A stretch of DNA of 32,449 bases from Armatimonadota bacterium (GTDB taxonomy: Bacteria > Armatimonadota > Armatimonadia > Armatimonadales > Capsulimonadaceae), in the NCBI GenBank assembly GCA_025354405.1, contig JANXMY010000002.1:1-32449 (forward strand). The letters run 5' to 3'. A program made the translations under genes and the position numbers. The notes below the pieces were generated by a model. It worked only from the letters and a program-made list of their open reading frames with translations. It had not been told where the DNA came from and did not search any database. Positions 7,950 to 16,820 of this stretch are shown here, in pieces (position 1 is the first letter of the stretch; each line of letters begins with the position of its first letter).

Positions 7950-8735
7950 TCAGGGGTTTCCCCCGTTTTCATCGGCTTCCTGGACGCCACCGACATCCGG
8001 TTTTTGGGAGATGCTTAGGGTTACAATTTCCCGAATCTCACTCCGGCAGCGCTCCACGGCTTGACGGATACGCCGGATTGTTTCCGTATCGCCGCGTTCT
8101 GCAAGACCCTTCATTCCGCCCCAGGCTGTCCGCCCCAGGTCATCCAGCTCTTCCCGTAGGAATCCGATTTCTGGCTGACTCGCAGCCGAAACCGTTTGAT
8201 TGGTAAAACGTGACCAGAACGCTTTCAAGTCTTCGGCGCGGGCTTCCAATTCGGCCAAACCCATCTCCGTTATATGGTAAACGCGTCGTTCTGCGTCCTG
8301 ATCACTGCGGACCTGTCCCAGGTCCTGTAGATACTGCATCGTCGGATAGACGGTGCCAGGGCTGGGAGTATATTCTCCCCCCGAGCGATCCTCCAAGAAC
8401 TTGATAATTTCGTAGCCATGTTTGGGGCCGTCGCGAAGCGTATCGAGGAGCACGTAGCGTGCTTCTCCGCGTCTGGCTCGGCCACGAGGTCCTCCGAAAT
8501 GGCCCCCGTGTCCTCCTCGGTGGCCGCCGCCTCGCCCGCCGTATTGAGGTCGCCCGCCTCCGTCGCTAGAATGTTCATCGGTGTGATGTTCCTCGTGGTG
8601 GTGGTGGTGTGAGCCGCCAAGCGGCGAACGAGTGCCGTGAGCTTCATGCCCTGAGTTGTGATGGTGACGGCCCTCGTGGTGACGGTGTACGTGGTGTCCC
8701 CCGGTATTATCATGTCGTCTGTTTTCGTCTCTCAT
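7950..8735 (-). CDS. PadR-family regulator with His-rich N-terminal arm (YqjI-like)
   Basis: A 261-residue protein in two parts. Residues 1 to about 85 are extremely rich in His, Gly and Arg (HHHHHEEHH, GGHRGGHGGHFGG). Residues about 88-170 form a PadR winged helix: GEARYVLLDTLRDGPKHGYE, the EYTPSPGTVYPTMQYLQDLG recognition region, and RRVYHITEMGLAELE. The C-terminal part is helical with SEIREIV. This layout matches E. coli YqjI, where a His-rich arm senses nickel and the protein represses a ferric reductase and itself. Here the arm suggests nickel, cobalt, zinc or copper sensing. It stands alone on the minus strand at the left border of the metal island. The promoter region carries tandem decamers that may be its operator. 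Confidence 0.87.
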   Translation of the reverse strand: MRDENRRHDNTGGHHVHRHHEGRHHHNSGHEAHGTRSPLGGSHHHHHEEHHTDEHSSDGGGRPQYGGRGGGHRGGHGGHFGGPRGRARRGEARYVLLDTLRDGPKHGYEIIKFLEDRSGGEYTPSPGTVYPTMQYLQDLGQVRSDQDAERRVYHITEMGLAELEARAEDLKAFWSRFTNQTVSAASQPEIGFLREELDDLGRTAWGGMKGLAERGDTETIRRIRQAVERCRSEIREIVTLSISQKPDVGGVQEADENGGNP

Positions 8736-8947: not shown

Positions 8948-8964
8948 TTCTATTGACAGTAAAA
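8948..8964. promoter_or_regulatory. Candidate BlaI-type operator at the repressor promoter
   Basis: TTCTATTGACAGTAAAA differs from the ideal palindrome TTCTACTGACAGTAGAA at two positions and covers the -35 element. An additional half site AGTAGAA lies at 8979-8985 over the -10 and expected transcription start. Confidence 0.6.
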
Positions 8965-8981
8965 AGCTTCTCGGATATAGT
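8953..8981 (+). promoter_or_regulatory. Promoter of the BlaI/M56 pair
   Basis: TTGACA (8953-8958), 17 bases, TATAGT (8976-8981). The transcription start would fall near 8988, which excludes the ATG at 8985 as a start codon and supports TTG at 9033. Confidence 0.8.
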
Positions 8982-9032
8982 AGAATGAGAGTGTCGGAAT
9001 CCCTCAAGTTTTTTGATCAGGAAGAATTTGCA

Positions 9033-9527
9033 TTGAACCCACCTATTCGACGTGCTCGGCCAGAAAAGACGGGGATACGCGCTCCGCTCGGGGACCTGGA
9101 AATGGCTGTGATGCAGCATGTCTGGGCCTGCCCCGATGACGGCTGCCTGGCGGTCGATGTGCAGCTGACTTTGGAGCGGGTGCGGCCACTCGCCCTGACC
9201 ACTATCCTCACGACCCTGGATCGCCTCTGTAAAAAAGGCATCCTGCGCCGAGAGCGTGTGGGCAAGGCTTACCGCTACTGGGCCACTGTGAGCGAAGAGA
9301 AATTGCAGCAGCGTATTGTTGAAGGCGTTCTCAGCAACCTGATCGATCAGTTCCCGAAAGCGGTGGCGGCTTACTTCGCACATCGCGAAAACCCTGAGAC
9401 ACCTGGAATCCGTGACGGGGAAAAGCTGGCGGAGCTGGCCCAGCGTGTGGAAGCCATGAAGTCCCTTGCTCACGACGACAAGGACTCGGACTTTGCCGAG
9501 GAGACTCCGTACCAGGAAAGGGGGTAA
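9033..9527 (+). CDS. BlaI/MecI/CopY-family transcriptional repressor
   Basis: A 164-residue winged-helix repressor. The DNA-binding half reads LGDLEMAVMQHVWACPDDGC, then LALTTILTTLDRLCKKGILR and GKAYRYWATVSEE, the hallmark recognition helix and wing of the BlaI family. The second half is helical and should dimerise. The start is taken as TTG at 9033, with AGGAAG eight bases upstream, because the upstream ATG at 8985 lies before the predicted transcript start. The M56 protease gene begins 4 nt after the stop. BlaI proteins are usually inactivated by cleavage or signalling from a partner M56 protease. There is no beta-lactamase or penicillin-binding gene here, so copper-responsive use, as with CopY, is more likely (inference). 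Confidence 0.88.
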   Translation: MNPPIRRARPEKTGIRAPLGDLEMAVMQHVWACPDDGCLAVDVQLTLERVRPLALTTILTTLDRLCKKGILRRERVGKAYRYWATVSEEKLQQRIVEGVLSNLIDQFPKAVAAYFAHRENPETPGIRDGEKLAELAQRVEAMKSLAHDDKDSDFAEETPYQERG

Positions 9528-9530
9528 CCG

Positions 9531-10643
9531 ATGGTAATCAACCCTCCGCTGCTGCTCGTCAGCGGGCTGTTCTTTCTCGCACTCTCCTCATTGCTCTCGG
9601 TCGCGGCTTTTCTGGCTGCGACAGCGATCCTCCGAGTGGGGCGTCGGTGGATCTCTCACACTCGCGCCAAAAAGGTGCTGCTGGCCTCTCTGCTCCTGCC
9701 GCCGATTCTTGCCGCAGTGCCGACATTCCGCGGGGCTACTCTGCACCACAGCCATGCACAGCCTTCTCTGGAGCATCACAGCGCTGCCTGCAGCGAAATT
9801 TTCGCAGGTCTGCTTTCGGCAAATCACGCGGGGAGCAGTGAGATTGTACGGCTGCCAGGGATGTTCGTAAACGGCCTTGCCTGGCTCCTCGTCGCACTCG
9901 GTCTCTTTTTCTTCCTGCGGCTGATAGTCGCCACCGTTCGGCTGGAGCGCGGCTTGACCTCCCATTTGAGCCGCCCCTCCCCCCGGCTGGCACGGGCACT
10001 CGCGCATATCGGACGACGAAGTCAGGTGAATGCCGCGCAGTTTTACGAGTGCCCGATCCCCGCATCCTATTCCAGTGTCCTGGGTGTGACCCGCACTCGC
10101 TGCGTCCTCTCCAAAGAACTCATCGCGGCCGCCACCGACGAAGAGCTCGACGCGATTGTCGCGCATGAGGCGGCTCACCTGCGCCTGCGGGACGTCGAAG
10201 CGACCTTTCTTGTCAGCATTCTGAGCTGCCTGTTTTTTTACCTGCGCCCGGTGCAGCTGCTCGCTCGCCGCTGGCGCGAGGAGACGGAGCTTACCTGTGA
10301 CGCTGACGCCATAACGGTCACCGGCAATCCACTCGCGATGGCGACGGCAATCCTGCGTGTCAGTGGCACTCCCCCAAGCTCGAATTCGAGTCGCCCCCTC
10401 TCCGCCGTATCTCTGGCCTTCGCCGACGAGCCTGCCTGTTTAACGGCGCGGCGCGTCGAAAACTTGATTTCGCAGGCGCAGAAATCGGCGTCACGGGGCC
10501 TGGAGGAGACGCGGCTGCACTCGGTGGGAAGCTGGGCACTCACGCTCGCCCTTGCCGGCTTTGGCGTTTCTTTCCTTCTGTCGGCACAAGTTGTCTGCTG
10601 GGCGCATTGCAGCCTGGAAGCGGTGGCACATTTCCTGCCCTGA
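9531..10643 (+). CDS. M56-family (BlaR1-like) membrane metalloprotease sensor
   Basis: A 370-residue polytopic membrane protein. Hydrophobic segments occur at about residues 8-30, 45-62, 108-135, in the region after the protease motif, and near the C-terminus. The zinc protease motif HEAAH is at residues 212-216, followed by a RDVEATF helix and a downstream EETELTCDADAI that supplies the third ligand. It is much shorter than BlaR1 and lacks the C-terminal penicillin-binding sensor domain. The loop between the second and third hydrophobic segments contains HHSH, HH and a Cys within about 20 residues and could bind a metal outside the membrane. Together with the adjacent BlaI-type repressor it forms a signal pair expected to derepress the nearby oxidase operon. 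Confidence 0.87.
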   Translation: MVINPPLLLVSGLFFLALSSLLSVAAFLAATAILRVGRRWISHTRAKKVLLASLLLPPILAAVPTFRGATLHHSHAQPSLEHHSAACSEIFAGLLSANHAGSSEIVRLPGMFVNGLAWLLVALGLFFFLRLIVATVRLERGLTSHLSRPSPRLARALAHIGRRSQVNAAQFYECPIPASYSSVLGVTRTRCVLSKELIAAATDEELDAIVAHEAAHLRLRDVEATFLVSILSCLFFYLRPVQLLARRWREETELTCDADAITVTGNPLAMATAILRVSGTPPSSNSSRPLSAVSLAFADEPACLTARRVENLISQAQKSASRGLEETRLHSVGSWALTLALAGFGVSFLLSAQVVCWAHCSLEAVAHFLP

Positions 10644-10675: not shown

Positions 10676-10705
10676 TTGCCGTCCGAGAAACGTTCTACTG
10701 ATAAT
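10676..10705 (+). promoter_or_regulatory. Promoter of the multicopper oxidase operon
   Basis: TTGCCG (10676-10681), 18 bases, GATAAT (10700-10705). The candidate operator at 10693-10709 covers the -10. About 275 nt of leader follow before the oxidase start; a short frame near 10827-10953 in this leader lacks a ribosome binding site and a recognisable product. Confidence 0.55.
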
Positions 10706-10709
10706 AGAA
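10693..10709. promoter_or_regulatory. Candidate BlaI-type operator at the oxidase promoter
   Basis: TTCTACTGATAATAGAA is a near-perfect palindrome, flanked by G and C that extend the dyad. It differs from TTCTACTGACAGTAGAA at two positions, matches the pattern of the repressor's own site, and overlaps the -10 element. Confidence 0.65.
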
Positions 10710-10980
10710 CAAAAGATTGAGGGATCCATATTTCATGACCAACACAAAGACGATATTGGTCGGCAAATGCTGATTCTCAACACGGACGAGGACCTGACGC
10801 ATAAGTTGCGGTTACGGTGCAGAATATGGCCTTCGAGGGTACGCTACACTCGGTGGGGACTACGTATCTGTCCCGCAAGTCTGTGATCCTTGCCCATACC
10901 AAAGTTTTGACCGTCCGCCTGCCTCTGGCGGGCACTTGTACTGGTTTTCGCTGAGACCGTTTGTTAGGAAGAAAAAGACT

Positions 10981-12246
10981 ATGAAACCACTTCGCAAGAA
11001 AGACAAGCCGCAGGATGTCTCGCGGCGTCAGTTCATGACGGGTGTCGCCGGCGCGGCGGGCGCCGGGCTGCTGCTAGGCCAGGCGGCACTGCCGGCGTGG
11101 GCCGACGGCGGCAGTGCACCGATGGACAGCCCTGCGACACCGTGGCTCGCCTCCTTCGATGCGGACGGCACGGCCCCGGAGTACAATCCCCGCGAGATGC
11201 CCAAGGCCGGTGAGGTCATCCATAAGTTTGAGATGGAAGTCACCATTGGTATCCATGAAATTGTGCCTGGCATCAAGGCCCATATGTTTCTCTTTAATGG
11301 CTCCTATCCCGGCCCGACGATCCGTGTTCAGGAGAACGAGTGGGTGCAGATCGACCTCAAGAACAAATCGCCGGAGAACCACACGATCCACTGGCATGGC
11401 ATGATGCTGCAAAACGAAATGGACGGCGTGCCATTTGGGACCCAGTGGCCGGTCTTCACCGGGCAGGGTTATCGGTACCTCTTCCGCGCTCAGCCTGCCG
11501 GAACGCATTTCTACCACTGCCACGTTATGACCACACTGCATCAGCAGGCGGGATTGGTCGGGGCACTGATCGTGGAAGCCAAAGAGGATATCGTCAAGAA
11601 GACGTTCCCCTACACGCGTGACTATACGCTGCTGCTGTCCGAGATCGACACCAACTGGGTCAACGAAAGCTTGAACGAGATGGTCGGCATGGGCATGACT
11701 ATGAATGCCATGAACAATGACATGAAGTTGATGGGCGAGATGAACGGGCGCATGATGGGCTGGTTCCAGGACAAAGAAGCCTTCTTAAAGTCTATCAAAG
11801 ACGGCTACACCCCCGCTTACATGACGTCGATGGTCGGGCCGAACCGCGTCATCACACCGAACTTCTTTATGATCAACGGCAAGTCCTATCCGATGACTGA
11901 CCCGCTGCTGATTAAGAAAGGTGAGAACATCCGAGTGAGGATGATTGGGGGCGGGATGCAGCCGCACTATTTCCACCTGCACGGTCACGACTTCTGGCAT
12001 GTCTGCCAGGACGGTGCGCCGCTGGCGTCGCCGGTGCGTATGAACACGATCCCGATCTTTCCCGGTACGACCTCGGACATCGTTATTCAGGGGACGAACC
12101 CCGGTTCCTGGCACTTCCATGACCACAGCGATTTGTCGACAACTAACAACGGTATTCATCCCGGCGGCATGATGACGATGCTGATGTACGAAGATGCAGA
12201 AAAATACGGCGTGACGTTCAAAGACGTAATTCAGACGAATTCGTAG
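10981..12246 (+). CDS. Tat-exported multicopper oxidase, type-1 copper in domain 1
   Basis: A 421-residue protein with a twin-arginine signal (SRRQFMTGVAGAAGA, then LPAWADG), so it is exported folded. Start at 10981 is favoured over the in-frame ATG at 10936 because AGGAAG lies nine bases upstream. Copper motifs: HTIHWHG (His134, 137, 139), HFYHCHVMTTLHQQAGL (His179, Cys180, His181, His187, axial Leu192), PHYFHLHGHDFWH (His329-340) and WHFHDHSDLS (His378, 380, 382). The blue-copper Cys is in the first domain, while the equivalent site in the second domain has Phe379. This is the arrangement called type C in two-domain oxidases. A Met-rich stretch (about residues 235-260) recalls CueO and suits Cu(I) oxidation. 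It heads a five-gene operon. Confidence 0.9.
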   Translation: MKPLRKKDKPQDVSRRQFMTGVAGAAGAGLLLGQAALPAWADGGSAPMDSPATPWLASFDADGTAPEYNPREMPKAGEVIHKFEMEVTIGIHEIVPGIKAHMFLFNGSYPGPTIRVQENEWVQIDLKNKSPENHTIHWHGMMLQNEMDGVPFGTQWPVFTGQGYRYLFRAQPAGTHFYHCHVMTTLHQQAGLVGALIVEAKEDIVKKTFPYTRDYTLLLSEIDTNWVNESLNEMVGMGMTMNAMNNDMKLMGEMNGRMMGWFQDKEAFLKSIKDGYTPAYMTSMVGPNRVITPNFFMINGKSYPMTDPLLIKKGENIRVRMIGGGMQPHYFHLHGHDFWHVCQDGAPLASPVRMNTIPIFPGTTSDIVIQGTNPGSWHFHDHSDLSTTNNGIHPGGMMTMLMYEDAEKYGVTFKDVIQTNS

Positions 12247-13557: not shown

Positions 13558-14682
13558 ATGAACAAGATATTTTTAATGCTTTCCGCAATGACGCTGGGGA
13601 CAGCCGTGCTTGCTCTTCCGTCTGAAGCCCAGCCTTTGTTTGTCACGGCGACAGTCAGTCCCGCCGCGCCTCAAACGGGCGACAACAAGCTTGACTTGCT
13701 GGTCTCTGACGCTGCCGGCAAGCCGGTGATGGGGCTGAAGCTGAATACCAGCGTCGCGATGACAAGCATGGACATGGGTACGACCCATCCTGCTTTCATC
13801 GAGACCGGCAGCGGCCATTATACAACGCAGGTTAACTTTGGAATGAACGGTCCGTGGCGGGTGGTCGTTCGCACTCAAGGCGGCAAGGTCGCGGTTCTGG
13901 ATTTCAATGCGGGGTCCCAAACGCCCTGGAAGTCGCCGCAGATCAAAGCAGCAGGCGCTTTGCCAACTCAGCCTGCCGCTCCAGTTCAGGCTGCCAGTCC
14001 TCTCGCACCCGCTAGTCCTACCGCGAATACGATGCCTGGAATGGACATGGGCGAAATGAAGCCCATGAAAATGACGGGCATTTCAGATATGAAAACTGCC
14101 ACGGTTCCCGAGCTGAAAGAAACCGGTACTTACACCGCGACCGGTACCGAGGACTGGAAAAAGCAGGCAGGTTTTGGCCGCAATGCCCCCATGGTCGGTA
14201 TGATGAACCAGATGATGGTTGGTGGCAGTGGCATGGAAGGCATGAAAATGGCCCCCATGACCATGACGTTTGGCGAGAATAATTATGCCAAGCCAGATGC
14301 TAGTGAGACCGACGATAGCATGGCAGGAATGGACATGAGCGGCAAACCTGGTGACGCCGCCAAGCCCGATGCTTCGGCGGCGGCTGTCCCAGTGCGCATC
14401 ACGGCGGTCATGACCTCTGCGCCAAAATCGGGTGACAATGCGCTGACTGTCAGCATCACAGACGCACAGGGCAAGCCCGTCGCCGGGGCAAAGATTACTG
14501 CCAGTGTCGCAATGACAAGCATGGACATGGGTACGACCCACCCGGCAGTCGCGGGAAAGGGCGCTGGGCAGTACGCAGCCACCGTCAACTTCAGCATGGC
14601 TGGTCCCTGGCGGGTCACGGTAAAAGTGGCCGCGCCGGGTCAAAAGGTACAGACGAAAGCCTTCGATTTCCTGGCGAAATAG
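13558..14682 (+). CDS. Secreted Met-rich protein with two YtkA-like domains
   Basis: A 374-residue protein with a signal peptide ending near LPSEAQP. Residues about 25-120 and 280-374 are two copies of a YtkA/FixH-like beta-sandwich: each has a TGDNKL or SGDNAL strand, SVAMTSMDMGTTHPA, GHYTTQVNF or GQYAATVNF, and GPWRV. The central linker is packed with Met-x-Met motifs (MPGMDMGEMKPMKM, GMMNQMMVGGSGMEGMKM, MAGMDMSG), as seen in periplasmic Cu(I)-binding proteins. The MTSMDMGTTHP loop of each domain is itself a probable thioether/His site. It may buffer copper or pass it to the oxidase (inference). The two domains share a 42-bp segment with only three silent differences, pointing to recent duplication or gene conversion. 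Confidence 0.8.
   Translation: MNKIFLMLSAMTLGTAVLALPSEAQPLFVTATVSPAAPQTGDNKLDLLVSDAAGKPVMGLKLNTSVAMTSMDMGTTHPAFIETGSGHYTTQVNFGMNGPWRVVVRTQGGKVAVLDFNAGSQTPWKSPQIKAAGALPTQPAAPVQAASPLAPASPTANTMPGMDMGEMKPMKMTGISDMKTATVPELKETGTYTATGTEDWKKQAGFGRNAPMVGMMNQMMVGGSGMEGMKMAPMTMTFGENNYAKPDASETDDSMAGMDMSGKPGDAAKPDASAAAVPVRITAVMTSAPKSGDNALTVSITDAQGKPVAGAKITASVAMTSMDMGTTHPAVAGKGAGQYAATVNFSMAGPWRVTVKVAAPGQKVQTKAFDFLAK
13749..13790 (+). repeat. Internal direct repeat, copy 1 (copy 2 at 14502-14543)
   Basis: The two 42-bp copies differ at three third-codon positions and encode the same metal-loop motif SVAMTSMDMGTTHP. Surrounding domain sequence is far more diverged. Confidence 0.85.
14502..14543 (+). repeat. 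Internal direct repeat, copy 2 (copy 1 at 13749-13790)
   Basis: Second copy of the 42-bp segment in the C-terminal YtkA-like domain, with all three differences silent. Confidence 0.85.
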
Positions 14683-14713: not shown

Positions 14714-14992
14714 ATGAAAATAGTACTATTAACCACAGTGGTCCTTTCGCTTATCTCTGGTGCAGCATTTGCTGCCCCAAGCCAGCCCGCCAAGGCGGCT
14801 TCAGCCAAGAAAGTCGTCCTGATCTGTCCGGTCACCGGCACGAAGATCGCCTCGGCGGCCCAAGCCTACAGCCATGAGGCCTACAAGGGTAAGACTTACT
14901 ACTTCTGCTGCCCGGCCTGCAAGCCTGCATTCGACAAGAACCCAGGCAAAGTGATCGCCAGTGCCGCCCGAGGCAAATATCAGCCGATGTAG
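14714..14992 (+). CDS. Secreted YHS-domain metal-binding protein
   Basis: A 92-residue protein with a Sec signal peptide (MKIVLLTTVVLSLISGAAFA). The mature protein is a single YHS-type domain: ICPVTGTKI, then YSHEAYKGKTYYFCCPACKP, then AFDKNPGKVI. Its Cys residues (CP, CCPAC) are placed to bind Cu(I) or another soft metal. YHS domains often appear fused to or beside copper ATPases and oxidases. The gene lies 31 nt after the YtkA-like gene and 34 nt before the next small gene, all in one apparent operon. The ribosome binding site is weak (AGAAAGAA). A periplasmic copper-carrier role is inferred. Confidence 0.83.
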   Translation: MKIVLLTTVVLSLISGAAFAAPSQPAKAASAKKVVLICPVTGTKIASAAQAYSHEAYKGKTYYFCCPACKPAFDKNPGKVIASAARGKYQPM

Positions 14993-15026
14993 TTTCGATT
15001 TCGTCACCTGAAAGGAACGTGCTCTT

Positions 15027-15293
15027 ATGAAAAACCTAATCCTCACGGCAGGCCTTGCCCTGTCGCTCCTTCCTCTCGTCGCAAATGCGGCCCCGACCCA
15101 TCATGCCATGAAGGCGCACGGCAAAACGGCTGCAGCGATGTACCAGTGCCAGAAATGCCACATGAAGTTCTCAGCGGCGACCGCTAAGAAAGACCATTAC
15201 AAAGATCCGATGGACGGCGGCAAGATGGTTCCCATGATGAACGCCCCCGCCAAAGGCACGATGGATAAATCCATGCCCGGCATGAAAATGTAA
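15027..15293 (+). CDS. Small secreted Cys/Met/His-rich protein
   Basis: An 88-residue protein with a signal peptide ending near ANAAP. The mature part holds HHAMKAHGK, a CQKCHMKFSA motif that resembles a zinc-ribbon or heavy-metal-binding knuckle, and a Met-rich tail (GGKMVPMMN, MDKSMPGMKM). No formal family is recognised beyond similarity in style to periplasmic copper-binding peptides. It is the last intact gene of the copper operon, with AAAGGAA upstream of its ATG. Confidence 0.75.
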   Translation: MKNLILTAGLALSLLPLVANAAPTHHAMKAHGKTAAAMYQCQKCHMKFSAATAKKDHYKDPMDGGKMVPMMNAPAKGTMDKSMPGMKM

Positions 15294-15400: not shown

Positions 15401-15699
15401 ATGAATACAGCACACTAATCGACGCGCAGCATCTCGTTTCCGATCAAATCTCAATCATCGGCCGCAACTTCGAAACGCATGAAGATACCCAGGGCTTCTA
15501 CCGCCCCGCAGATGCGGCCCTGGACGGCGCGGGGCAGGGCGCCTGGTTTGGCGGGCTATTCGGACTGATGCTGGGAGCGATGGGCTTCTTCGTGATGCCT
15601 GTGGTCGGGGCGGTTCTGATCATGGGGTCGCTTGCGGATATGATCGCTGGAGCTATCGGCGGAGCAGGGGCGGGGGCATCCTCAAACTGCATTTCATGA
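15401..15699 (+). pseudogene. DUF1269-like membrane stress protein, frameshifted and truncated
   Basis: A good ribosome binding site (AGGGAGGAACAG) precedes ATG at 15401, but that frame stops after MNTAH. The neighbouring frame continues with LIDAQHLVSDQISIIGRNF, then ALDGAGQGAWFGGLFGLMLG, two hydrophobic segments and GAIGGAGAGA. This resembles the N-terminal ferredoxin-like fold and glycine-rich membrane hairpin of DUF1269/general-stress-17M-type proteins. A deletion or frameshift near the start and loss of everything after the second hydrophobic segment mark it as a relic. Confidence 0.6.
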
Positions 15700-16820
15700 C
15701 TTCACTCGATCCCCTCTTTAACGGCCCGCGCGGGGTTCCGAATCTCTTCCAGAACGGATTTACCGTCCACGGCTCTGATGACGGCGACCGGAAAGACCCG
15801 CACAATATTCTGATCAAAGATGCCGCGACTCTCGAAGGCACCTCGCGAATCACGTCTGTCGCCTTCGACAAGACAGGGACGCTGACGGAAGGCAGGCCCT
15901 TGGTCAGTGCCGTGTACGCGGCGGAGGGGATGGACGAGAACGAAGCGATTCGGCGTCTGGCGGCCGCCGAGCAGAACTCCAGCCATCCATTGGCAGTCGC
16001 CATTCTGGCGGAAGCGGCGCAGCGCAAGTTGCCCCAGACGGCCCATGTCAAGGATTTCCAGAACGTCGCGGGCCACGGTCTCCAGGCAACCATAGATGGA
16101 AAGAATGTGCTTGTCGGAAATGCCAGCCTGTTCACGGACAAAAAAGTGGCATTTGCCCCGATCCAGAAGGGGATTGACCAGCAGCTTGCAGCAGGCCAGA
16201 CCATGATCCTGCTGGCGGTGGACGGCAAAGCCGCCGCGGTGGTCGGCGTGACCGACCCCATCAAACCCTCAGCCAAGCGAGCCGTGGCGGAGCTCAAGAA
16301 ACTCGGCATCAAGGCAGCGATGGTCAGCGGCGACAACCAGGCGGTGGCGGAGCGTGTCGGCAGGGAGATCGGGATCGACCGGGTCTTTGCTGAGGTGCTG
16401 CCGGAGAACAAGGCGGATTTCGTCAAGAAGCTCCAAAGTGAAGGTGAGTTCGTGGCGATGGTCGGCGACGGCGTCAACGACGCCCCTGCACTGGCACAGG
16501 CAGACATCGGGATTGCGATCGGGGCCGGCACGGACGTGGCGATTGAGGCGGCAAAGATCGTGCTGATGAAATCGGACCCGCTGGATATCGTCAATGCCAT
16601 TTTGCTCTCGAAGGCCACTGTGCGGAAGATGAAGCAGAATCTGGTCTGGGCCAGCGTTTATAACGTCCTGGCGATTCCCGTGGCCGCCGGTGCATTCTAC
16701 CACTCGCTGGGCTGGTCGCTGCGCCCGGAAGTCTCGGCTCTGCTGATGTCGGCCTCGTCGATCATCGTGGCCGTCAATGCCGTGATGCTGCGCCGATCTG
16801 AGAGGGATCTTATTAAATGA
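15696..16820 (+). pseudogene. C-terminal half of a P1B-type (copper) ATPase
   Basis: From about 15811 the frame reads ILIKDAATLEG, then AFDKTGTLTEGRP (phosphorylated Asp), SSHPLAVAIL (the His-Pro motif of P1B pumps), VGDGVNDAPALAQADIGIAI and the final two membrane helices. The heavy-metal domain, first six helices, actuator domain and the CPC ion-binding motif are all missing; roughly 400 residues are lost. The first about 38 codons (15696-15810) are unrelated to any ATPase and look like joined foreign sequence. The ATG at 15696 overlaps the end of the DUF1269-like relic. Without the ion channel it cannot pump, so a pseudogene is the best reading. Confidence 0.82.

Follow-up and report, generated by a model that had tools for sequence, protein, structure and literature searches.

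The window analysed here, a stretch of 32,449 nucleotides at the start of contig JANXMY010000002.1, belongs to the 3.6-Mb genome of a member of the Armatimonadota (Capsulimonadaceae; G000 in the following), and the locus of interest lies on this single contig. It comprises a repressor gene of the BlaI/CopY superfamily (9033-9527) and, in the same operon, a gene for a BlaR1-type membrane metalloprotease of family M56 (9531-10643, 370 amino acids), which starts three bases behind the end of the former; both are on the forward strand, as are the genes and protein features of the window given with coordinates below unless noted otherwise. The repressor was assigned to the BlaI family with 75 bits against a cut-off of 22.6 (Pfam Penicillinase_R, 7.7e-21), and its start is probably the TTG behind an SD sequence (AGGAAG, 9019-9024), because the upstream ATG at 8985 coincides with the expected transcription start. 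A sigma70-type promoter (TTGACA-17-TATAGT, 8953-8981, forward strand) with 11 of 12 matches precedes the operon. Divergently from this blaI gene a PadR-type regulator is encoded (7950-8735, reverse strand), which has a very His-rich N-terminal extension and may be metal-responsive; a second BlaI-family repressor of G000 is located on another contig (L142 3498-3881, G000:C192), where no M56 partner was seen.

The protease is the sole M56 protein encoded in G000 and was recognised by Pfam Peptidase_M56 (4.1e-17; 62.7 bits, cut-off 31) as well as in comparison with its relatives (L003, L004, L005). Its zinc and catalytic motif HEAAH (residues 212-216, 10164-10178) is invariant in the alignment of relatives, and the acidic motif EETELTCD further downstream (residues 250-257, 10278-10301), in which E253 and D257 are invariant, likely supplies the third zinc ligand. 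With HExxH and a putative downstream acidic zinc ligand, the M56 protein of the region 9033-10643 is, judged by its domain and motifs, a member of peptidase family M56. The Pfam domain scan of the protein detected neither a transpeptidase/beta-lactamase nor a penicillin-binding domain, NCBIfam blaR1_generic reached 27 bits against a cut-off of 400, and the chain ends about 20 residues past TM4. A BlaR1-like protein lacking the sensor domain and paired with a BlaI-type repressor had been proposed in a preliminary description of this DNA, and both parts of the proposal were borne out.

Four helices (residues 5-36, 43-74, 104-146 and 329-349) were predicted in an AlphaFold model of low confidence, which was built from seven sequences (pLDDT 62, outer loop mostly <50). 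The loop between TM1 and TM2 is basic (RVGRRWISHTRAKK) and fits the positive-inside rule; from this rule and the helix pattern, the protease domain between TM3 and TM4 with its HEAAH motif would be cytoplasmic, and the TM2-TM3 loop and the C-terminal tail would lie outside. With the low-confidence model as query, Foldseek returned no PDB structure at E <= 0.001 and a single-sequence search of the PDB was likewise empty, but a family profile search recovered the BlaR1 structures 8exs/8exp over the protease region (E about 1e-5). A plasmid search gave no match.

The two presumably extracytoplasmic parts hold the candidate metal ligands. In the outer loop HHSHAQPSLEHHSAAC (residues 72-87, 9744-9791), flanked by helices and conserved in G000, G001, G015 and G088, the HHSH, HH and Cys singled out earlier were located at residues 72-75, 82-83 and 87 between TM2 and TM3, and the pattern can be written as LHHSH-x6-HH-x3-C (His72, His73, His75, His82, His83, Cys87). 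These 16 residues are the densest His/Cys window of the protein, and the whole TM2-TM3 loop of 43 residues contains seven of its 22 His and Cys (p = 0.008). A second candidate set, which the preliminary description had not mentioned, is formed by CWAHCSLE in the tail (residues 356-363, 10596-10619), also conserved in relatives, with the pattern CxxHCxxE (C356-x2-H359-C360-x2-E363) among the final residues CWAHCSLEAVAHFLP; it occupies the place of the penicillin sensor of BlaR1. Across four sequences, those of the G000 protein and of the three relatives nearest to it that could be aligned, H359, C360 and E363 are invariant, and three of the four have C356. Loop and tail provide a candidate metal site; the model is too weak to show whether the two come together.

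That the His and Cys of the loop are more than a chance enrichment is indicated by their retention in relatives of only 45-55% identity, as LHHSH..EHHSAAC in G000 corresponds to LHHSH..EHHSSAC in G001 (55% identical), LHHKH..EHHNDLC in G088 and LRHSH..AHHTMAC in G015. It is likewise indicated by the greater abundance of these residues in sensor-less M56 proteins: before TM3, His and Cys amount on average to 8.6% in 34 short proteins versus 1.9% in 16 long ones (Mann-Whitney p = 6e-6), a test that ignores relatedness and in which some wrongly filed rows among the short proteins reduce the difference. More distant members vary in detail, with the loop FHQVPHLC and the tail LHCLVE in G033 and mostly DHCxxHxxHHxHLCxxHP and HHxxE in gammaproteobacteria, in which the tail form H[CH]xxE is thus found again. 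At the level of sequence, the loop-plus-tail plan persists across relatives though exact ligands vary, and it is missing from M56 proteins with long outer domains. In a tree of the protease domain all long proteins group together on one side (95/79), opposite the short ones; the exception is one distant Gemmatimonadetes short row, which has no loop and stands off the short side. The M56 gene of G088 (L078 5787-6900) is frameshifted, with loop and tail legible in pieces, and represents either a decayed gene or an assembly error.

Downstream of the pair lie the copper genes that had already been noted as its neighbours. A multicopper oxidase (MCO) with a Tat-like signal, the presumed target (about 10981-12246; Pfam Cu-oxidase_3 2.2e-35, Cu-oxidase_2 1.7e-25), is followed by genes presumed to belong to the same operon, namely for a secreted, Met-rich YtkA-like/FixH-like protein (13558-14682; Pfam YtkA 5.9e-27) and for two small secreted Cys-containing proteins, one with a YHS domain (Pfam YHS 4.3e-10) and one with CxxC (14714-15293). 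Between the oxidase and the dyad described below, the remnant of a decayed cupredoxin gene was traced (10764-10924; two collinear tblastn pieces, E 0.001), and an intact cupredoxin gene occupies the corresponding place in G001 (L032 5896-6462). Further downstream a fragment of a heavy-metal P-type ATPase is encoded (15696-16820, forward strand), from which the metal-binding, A-domain and N-terminal membrane parts are absent; five P-type ATPases bearing an A-domain are found on other contigs of G000.

Both promoter regions of the locus share an operator-like dyad, a feature that had likewise escaped the preliminary description. In a pattern search one copy, TTCTATTGACAGTAAAA (8948-8964), was found to cover the -35 box of the blaI promoter and the other, TTCTACTGATAATAGAA (10693-10709), to lie upstream of the multicopper oxidase operon; neither of the G000 dyads contains the cop box TACAnnTGTA. 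The 17-bp consensus, TTYTAYTNNYARTARAA, has a window expectation of 0.00 and occurs twice in G000, both times at this locus, and three times in G001, which keeps both dyads at the same operon positions. In G001 the third copy is situated about 100 bp upstream from the gene for a secreted His/Met-rich protein (MADHTAAGRHHMAVGRRHMAMARHH...) and adjoins genes for YHS and CxxC proteins that have homologues at the G000 locus. A further copy in G015 is placed after the M56 gene and before a secreted Cys-rich protein, and one with a single mismatch precedes blaI in G088. Since the pattern was drawn from the promoter sites of G000 and G001, independence of it can be claimed solely for the sites in G015 and G088 and for the third one in G001; elsewhere in 291 genomes of the phylum the pattern and its reversed control were similarly rare (about 0.05 per genome). 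Dyads in genus g15 (G204, G059, G048) were rejected as copper operators and assigned to the background, as the gene downstream of them is a conserved one of the MarR type; these sites (L084, L085 and L086, 1501-1517) show the same pattern and probably represent an unrelated operator.

The linkage to metal genes extends well beyond the closest relatives. Among M56/BlaI loci of Armatimonadota and Gammaproteobacteria, metal genes were present near 20 of 31 short, sensor-less ones (19 detected by search, L033 by eye) versus none of 17 long ones, all of which are armatimonadotal and most of which have BlaI (Fisher p = 5e-6, with loci that are not independent by descent). When the seven loci that had donated reference proteins were left out, the relation was 13 of 24 to 0 of 17 (p = 1.4e-4). 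The pair is accompanied by an MCO and a cupredoxin or its relic in G000, G001 and G088, with the cupredoxin itself in the operon of the latter two, and by CusBA, often with TolC, in G033, G014, G024, G051 and most gammaproteobacteria; the five pumps tested were called CusA/CzcA by NCBIfam over the cut-off. A CopZ-like HMA protein is encoded beside the short pair in genus g15, and ZnuABC-like genes in G028. About a third of the short pairs, some on short contigs, showed no visible metal neighbour; among short pairs without metal genes visible nearby, L070, L072 and L073 share RPHLC loops.

The suggestion that the protein may be a proteolytic copper sensor gains support from the missing penicillin sensor, the conserved loop and tail, the dyads common to both promoters and the repeated linkage to metal genes. 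We regard it as probable that the pair acts as a one-step transmembrane metal sensor, in which a metal outside the membrane, most likely copper, activates the protease, the repressor is cut and the copper genes are switched on. At low metal a dimer of the BlaI-type repressor would occupy the 17-bp dyads and block its own promoter as well as the copper operon. Periplasmic metal, again most likely copper, would bind to the TM2-TM3 His/Cys loop and the CxxHCxxE tail outside the membrane, and the resulting shift of the helices would render the cytoplasmic HEAAH protease active. The active protease would then cut the repressor near Tyr114-Phe115 (9372-9377), a position aligned in a comparison with BlaI 1sd4 to the N101-F102 bond, at which BlaI of S. 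aureus is cleaved (PMC3305447); production of the multicopper oxidase and of the secreted proteins accompanying it would follow. Sensing likely resides in the protease, as the repressor has no C-terminal CxC motif in its sequence and Cys only at positions 33, 38 and 66; direct metal sensing by the repressor in the manner of CopY was rejected for the same reason.

In another part of the G000 genome, CopA has a CsoR-family repressor as its partner. As CsoR is already with CopA, a periplasmic role is left for the BlaI/M56 pair, and a division of labour can be envisaged in which CsoR would respond to cytoplasmic and the pair to periplasmic copper. In well-known systems periplasmic copper is sensed by CusS and cytoplasmic copper by CsoR, and CusRS/CopRS and CsoR control Cus, MCO and CopA genes; these are unrelated proteins, which act by phosphorylation or direct binding instead of the repressor proteolysis proposed here.

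The same mechanism could be driven primarily by another metal, such as zinc, silver or cadmium, or by several, with the copper genes as one part of the response. CusA/CzcA-family pumps near related pairs may carry various metals, a cation-diffusion-facilitator-like gene is present at L113 and ZnuABC-like genes at L069, and the loop ligands differ between subgroups; however, in the closest set (G000, G001, G088) the multicopper oxidase with cupredoxin or its relic speaks for copper biology, and this explanation is considered unlikely, albeit the most serious of the alternatives. Relatives of the pair may nonetheless use other metals: at L069 (1459-7214) the ZnuABC-like genes adjoin a short M56/BlaI pair whose loop is rich in Cys, and this pair is possibly a zinc- or manganese-sensing cousin.

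Less credence still is given to a non-metal signal, be it envelope damage, Cys oxidation or a cell-wall compound, with the copper genes in the neighbourhood since copper stress causes damage. Disulfides could form between Cys87, Cys356 and Cys360, a katG-like gene is found downstream together with a PerR/Fur-type regulator, and long M56 relatives carry other outer domains, but the retention of His pairs (HxH, HH) and of H[CH]xxE in the tail speaks against such a signal, and no Cys pattern is universal, gammaproteobacterial tails often being HH without Cys. A BlaR1-like antibiotic sensor of the usual kind, deprived of its C-terminal domain and by now constitutive or in decay, would agree with the absent penicillin-binding domain and the frameshifted G088 copy; yet the catalytic motifs, the loop and the tail have all been retained in widely diverged proteins, and the separate side of the protease-domain tree identifies the sensor-less M56 protein as an old form rather than a recent truncation, so that this origin appears highly improbable. 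A metal-responsive pair, most likely for copper, remains the preferred reading.

With BlaR1/BlaI and MecR1/MecI of staphylococci and B. licheniformis the pair has in common the M56 domain, the four-helix plan, the repressor family, a Phe at the cleavage position and, as the dyad suggests, a self-controlled operon, but it differs in the outer His/Cys loop and tail in place of a penicillin-binding domain, in the dyad, and in that no beta-lactamase neighbour was seen. CopY/TcrY of Firmicutes belong to the same repressor superfamily and also target copper genes, whereas the G000 repressor is without C-terminal CxC ligands, its dyads are without the cop box and it has a dedicated protease partner; CopY_TcrY was its best NCBIfam match, with 40.1 bits far under the cut-off of 121.95. 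The pair is consequently neither BlaR1, as the sensor domain is absent, nor CopY.

The nearest precedent is PetRP of Synechocystis PCC 6803, in which PetR, a BlaI/CopY-family regulator, is degraded in the presence of copper by the BlaR-type protease PetP (PMC7896320, PMC12292863, PMC13421787), and in the literature on M56 or BlaI-family proteins with copper only the PetRP papers were found. The likeness rests on the adjacent BlaI-family regulator and M56 protease in G000 and on the published behaviour of PetRP; the principle was hence already known, and the G000 pair, if copper-responsive, would not be the first of its kind. In contrast to PetRP, which switches plastocyanin (petE) and cytochrome c6 (petJ) within a four-protein regulon, the G000 pair is linked to periplasmic copper detoxification genes (MCO, YtkA-like, YHS) and not to genes of the petE/petJ type, although the operons of G001 and G088 include a cupredoxin. 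New are the candidate metal site, the operator and regulon candidates and the wide association with detoxification of copper and heavy metals. How a BlaR-type protease senses copper is still a question for PetP, whose copper-regulated activity was named as future work (PMC7896320), and what BlaR homologues do in heterotrophs was called unknown in a review (PMC10141476); both questions become directly testable with the residues named here, the operator, the small regulon and the numerous neighbours. On balance, it seems likely that sensor-less M56/BlaI pairs make up a widespread and for the most part undescribed group of proteolytic metal sensors, with PetRP as the sole characterised relative. 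In this group the penicillin-binding domain would have given way to an outer His/Cys loop and an H[CH]xxE tail, and the pairs would control detoxification of the MCO and CusCBA types in both Armatimonadota and Gammaproteobacteria. This suggests proteolytic metal sensing beyond cyanobacteria, for copper and heavy-metal resistance.
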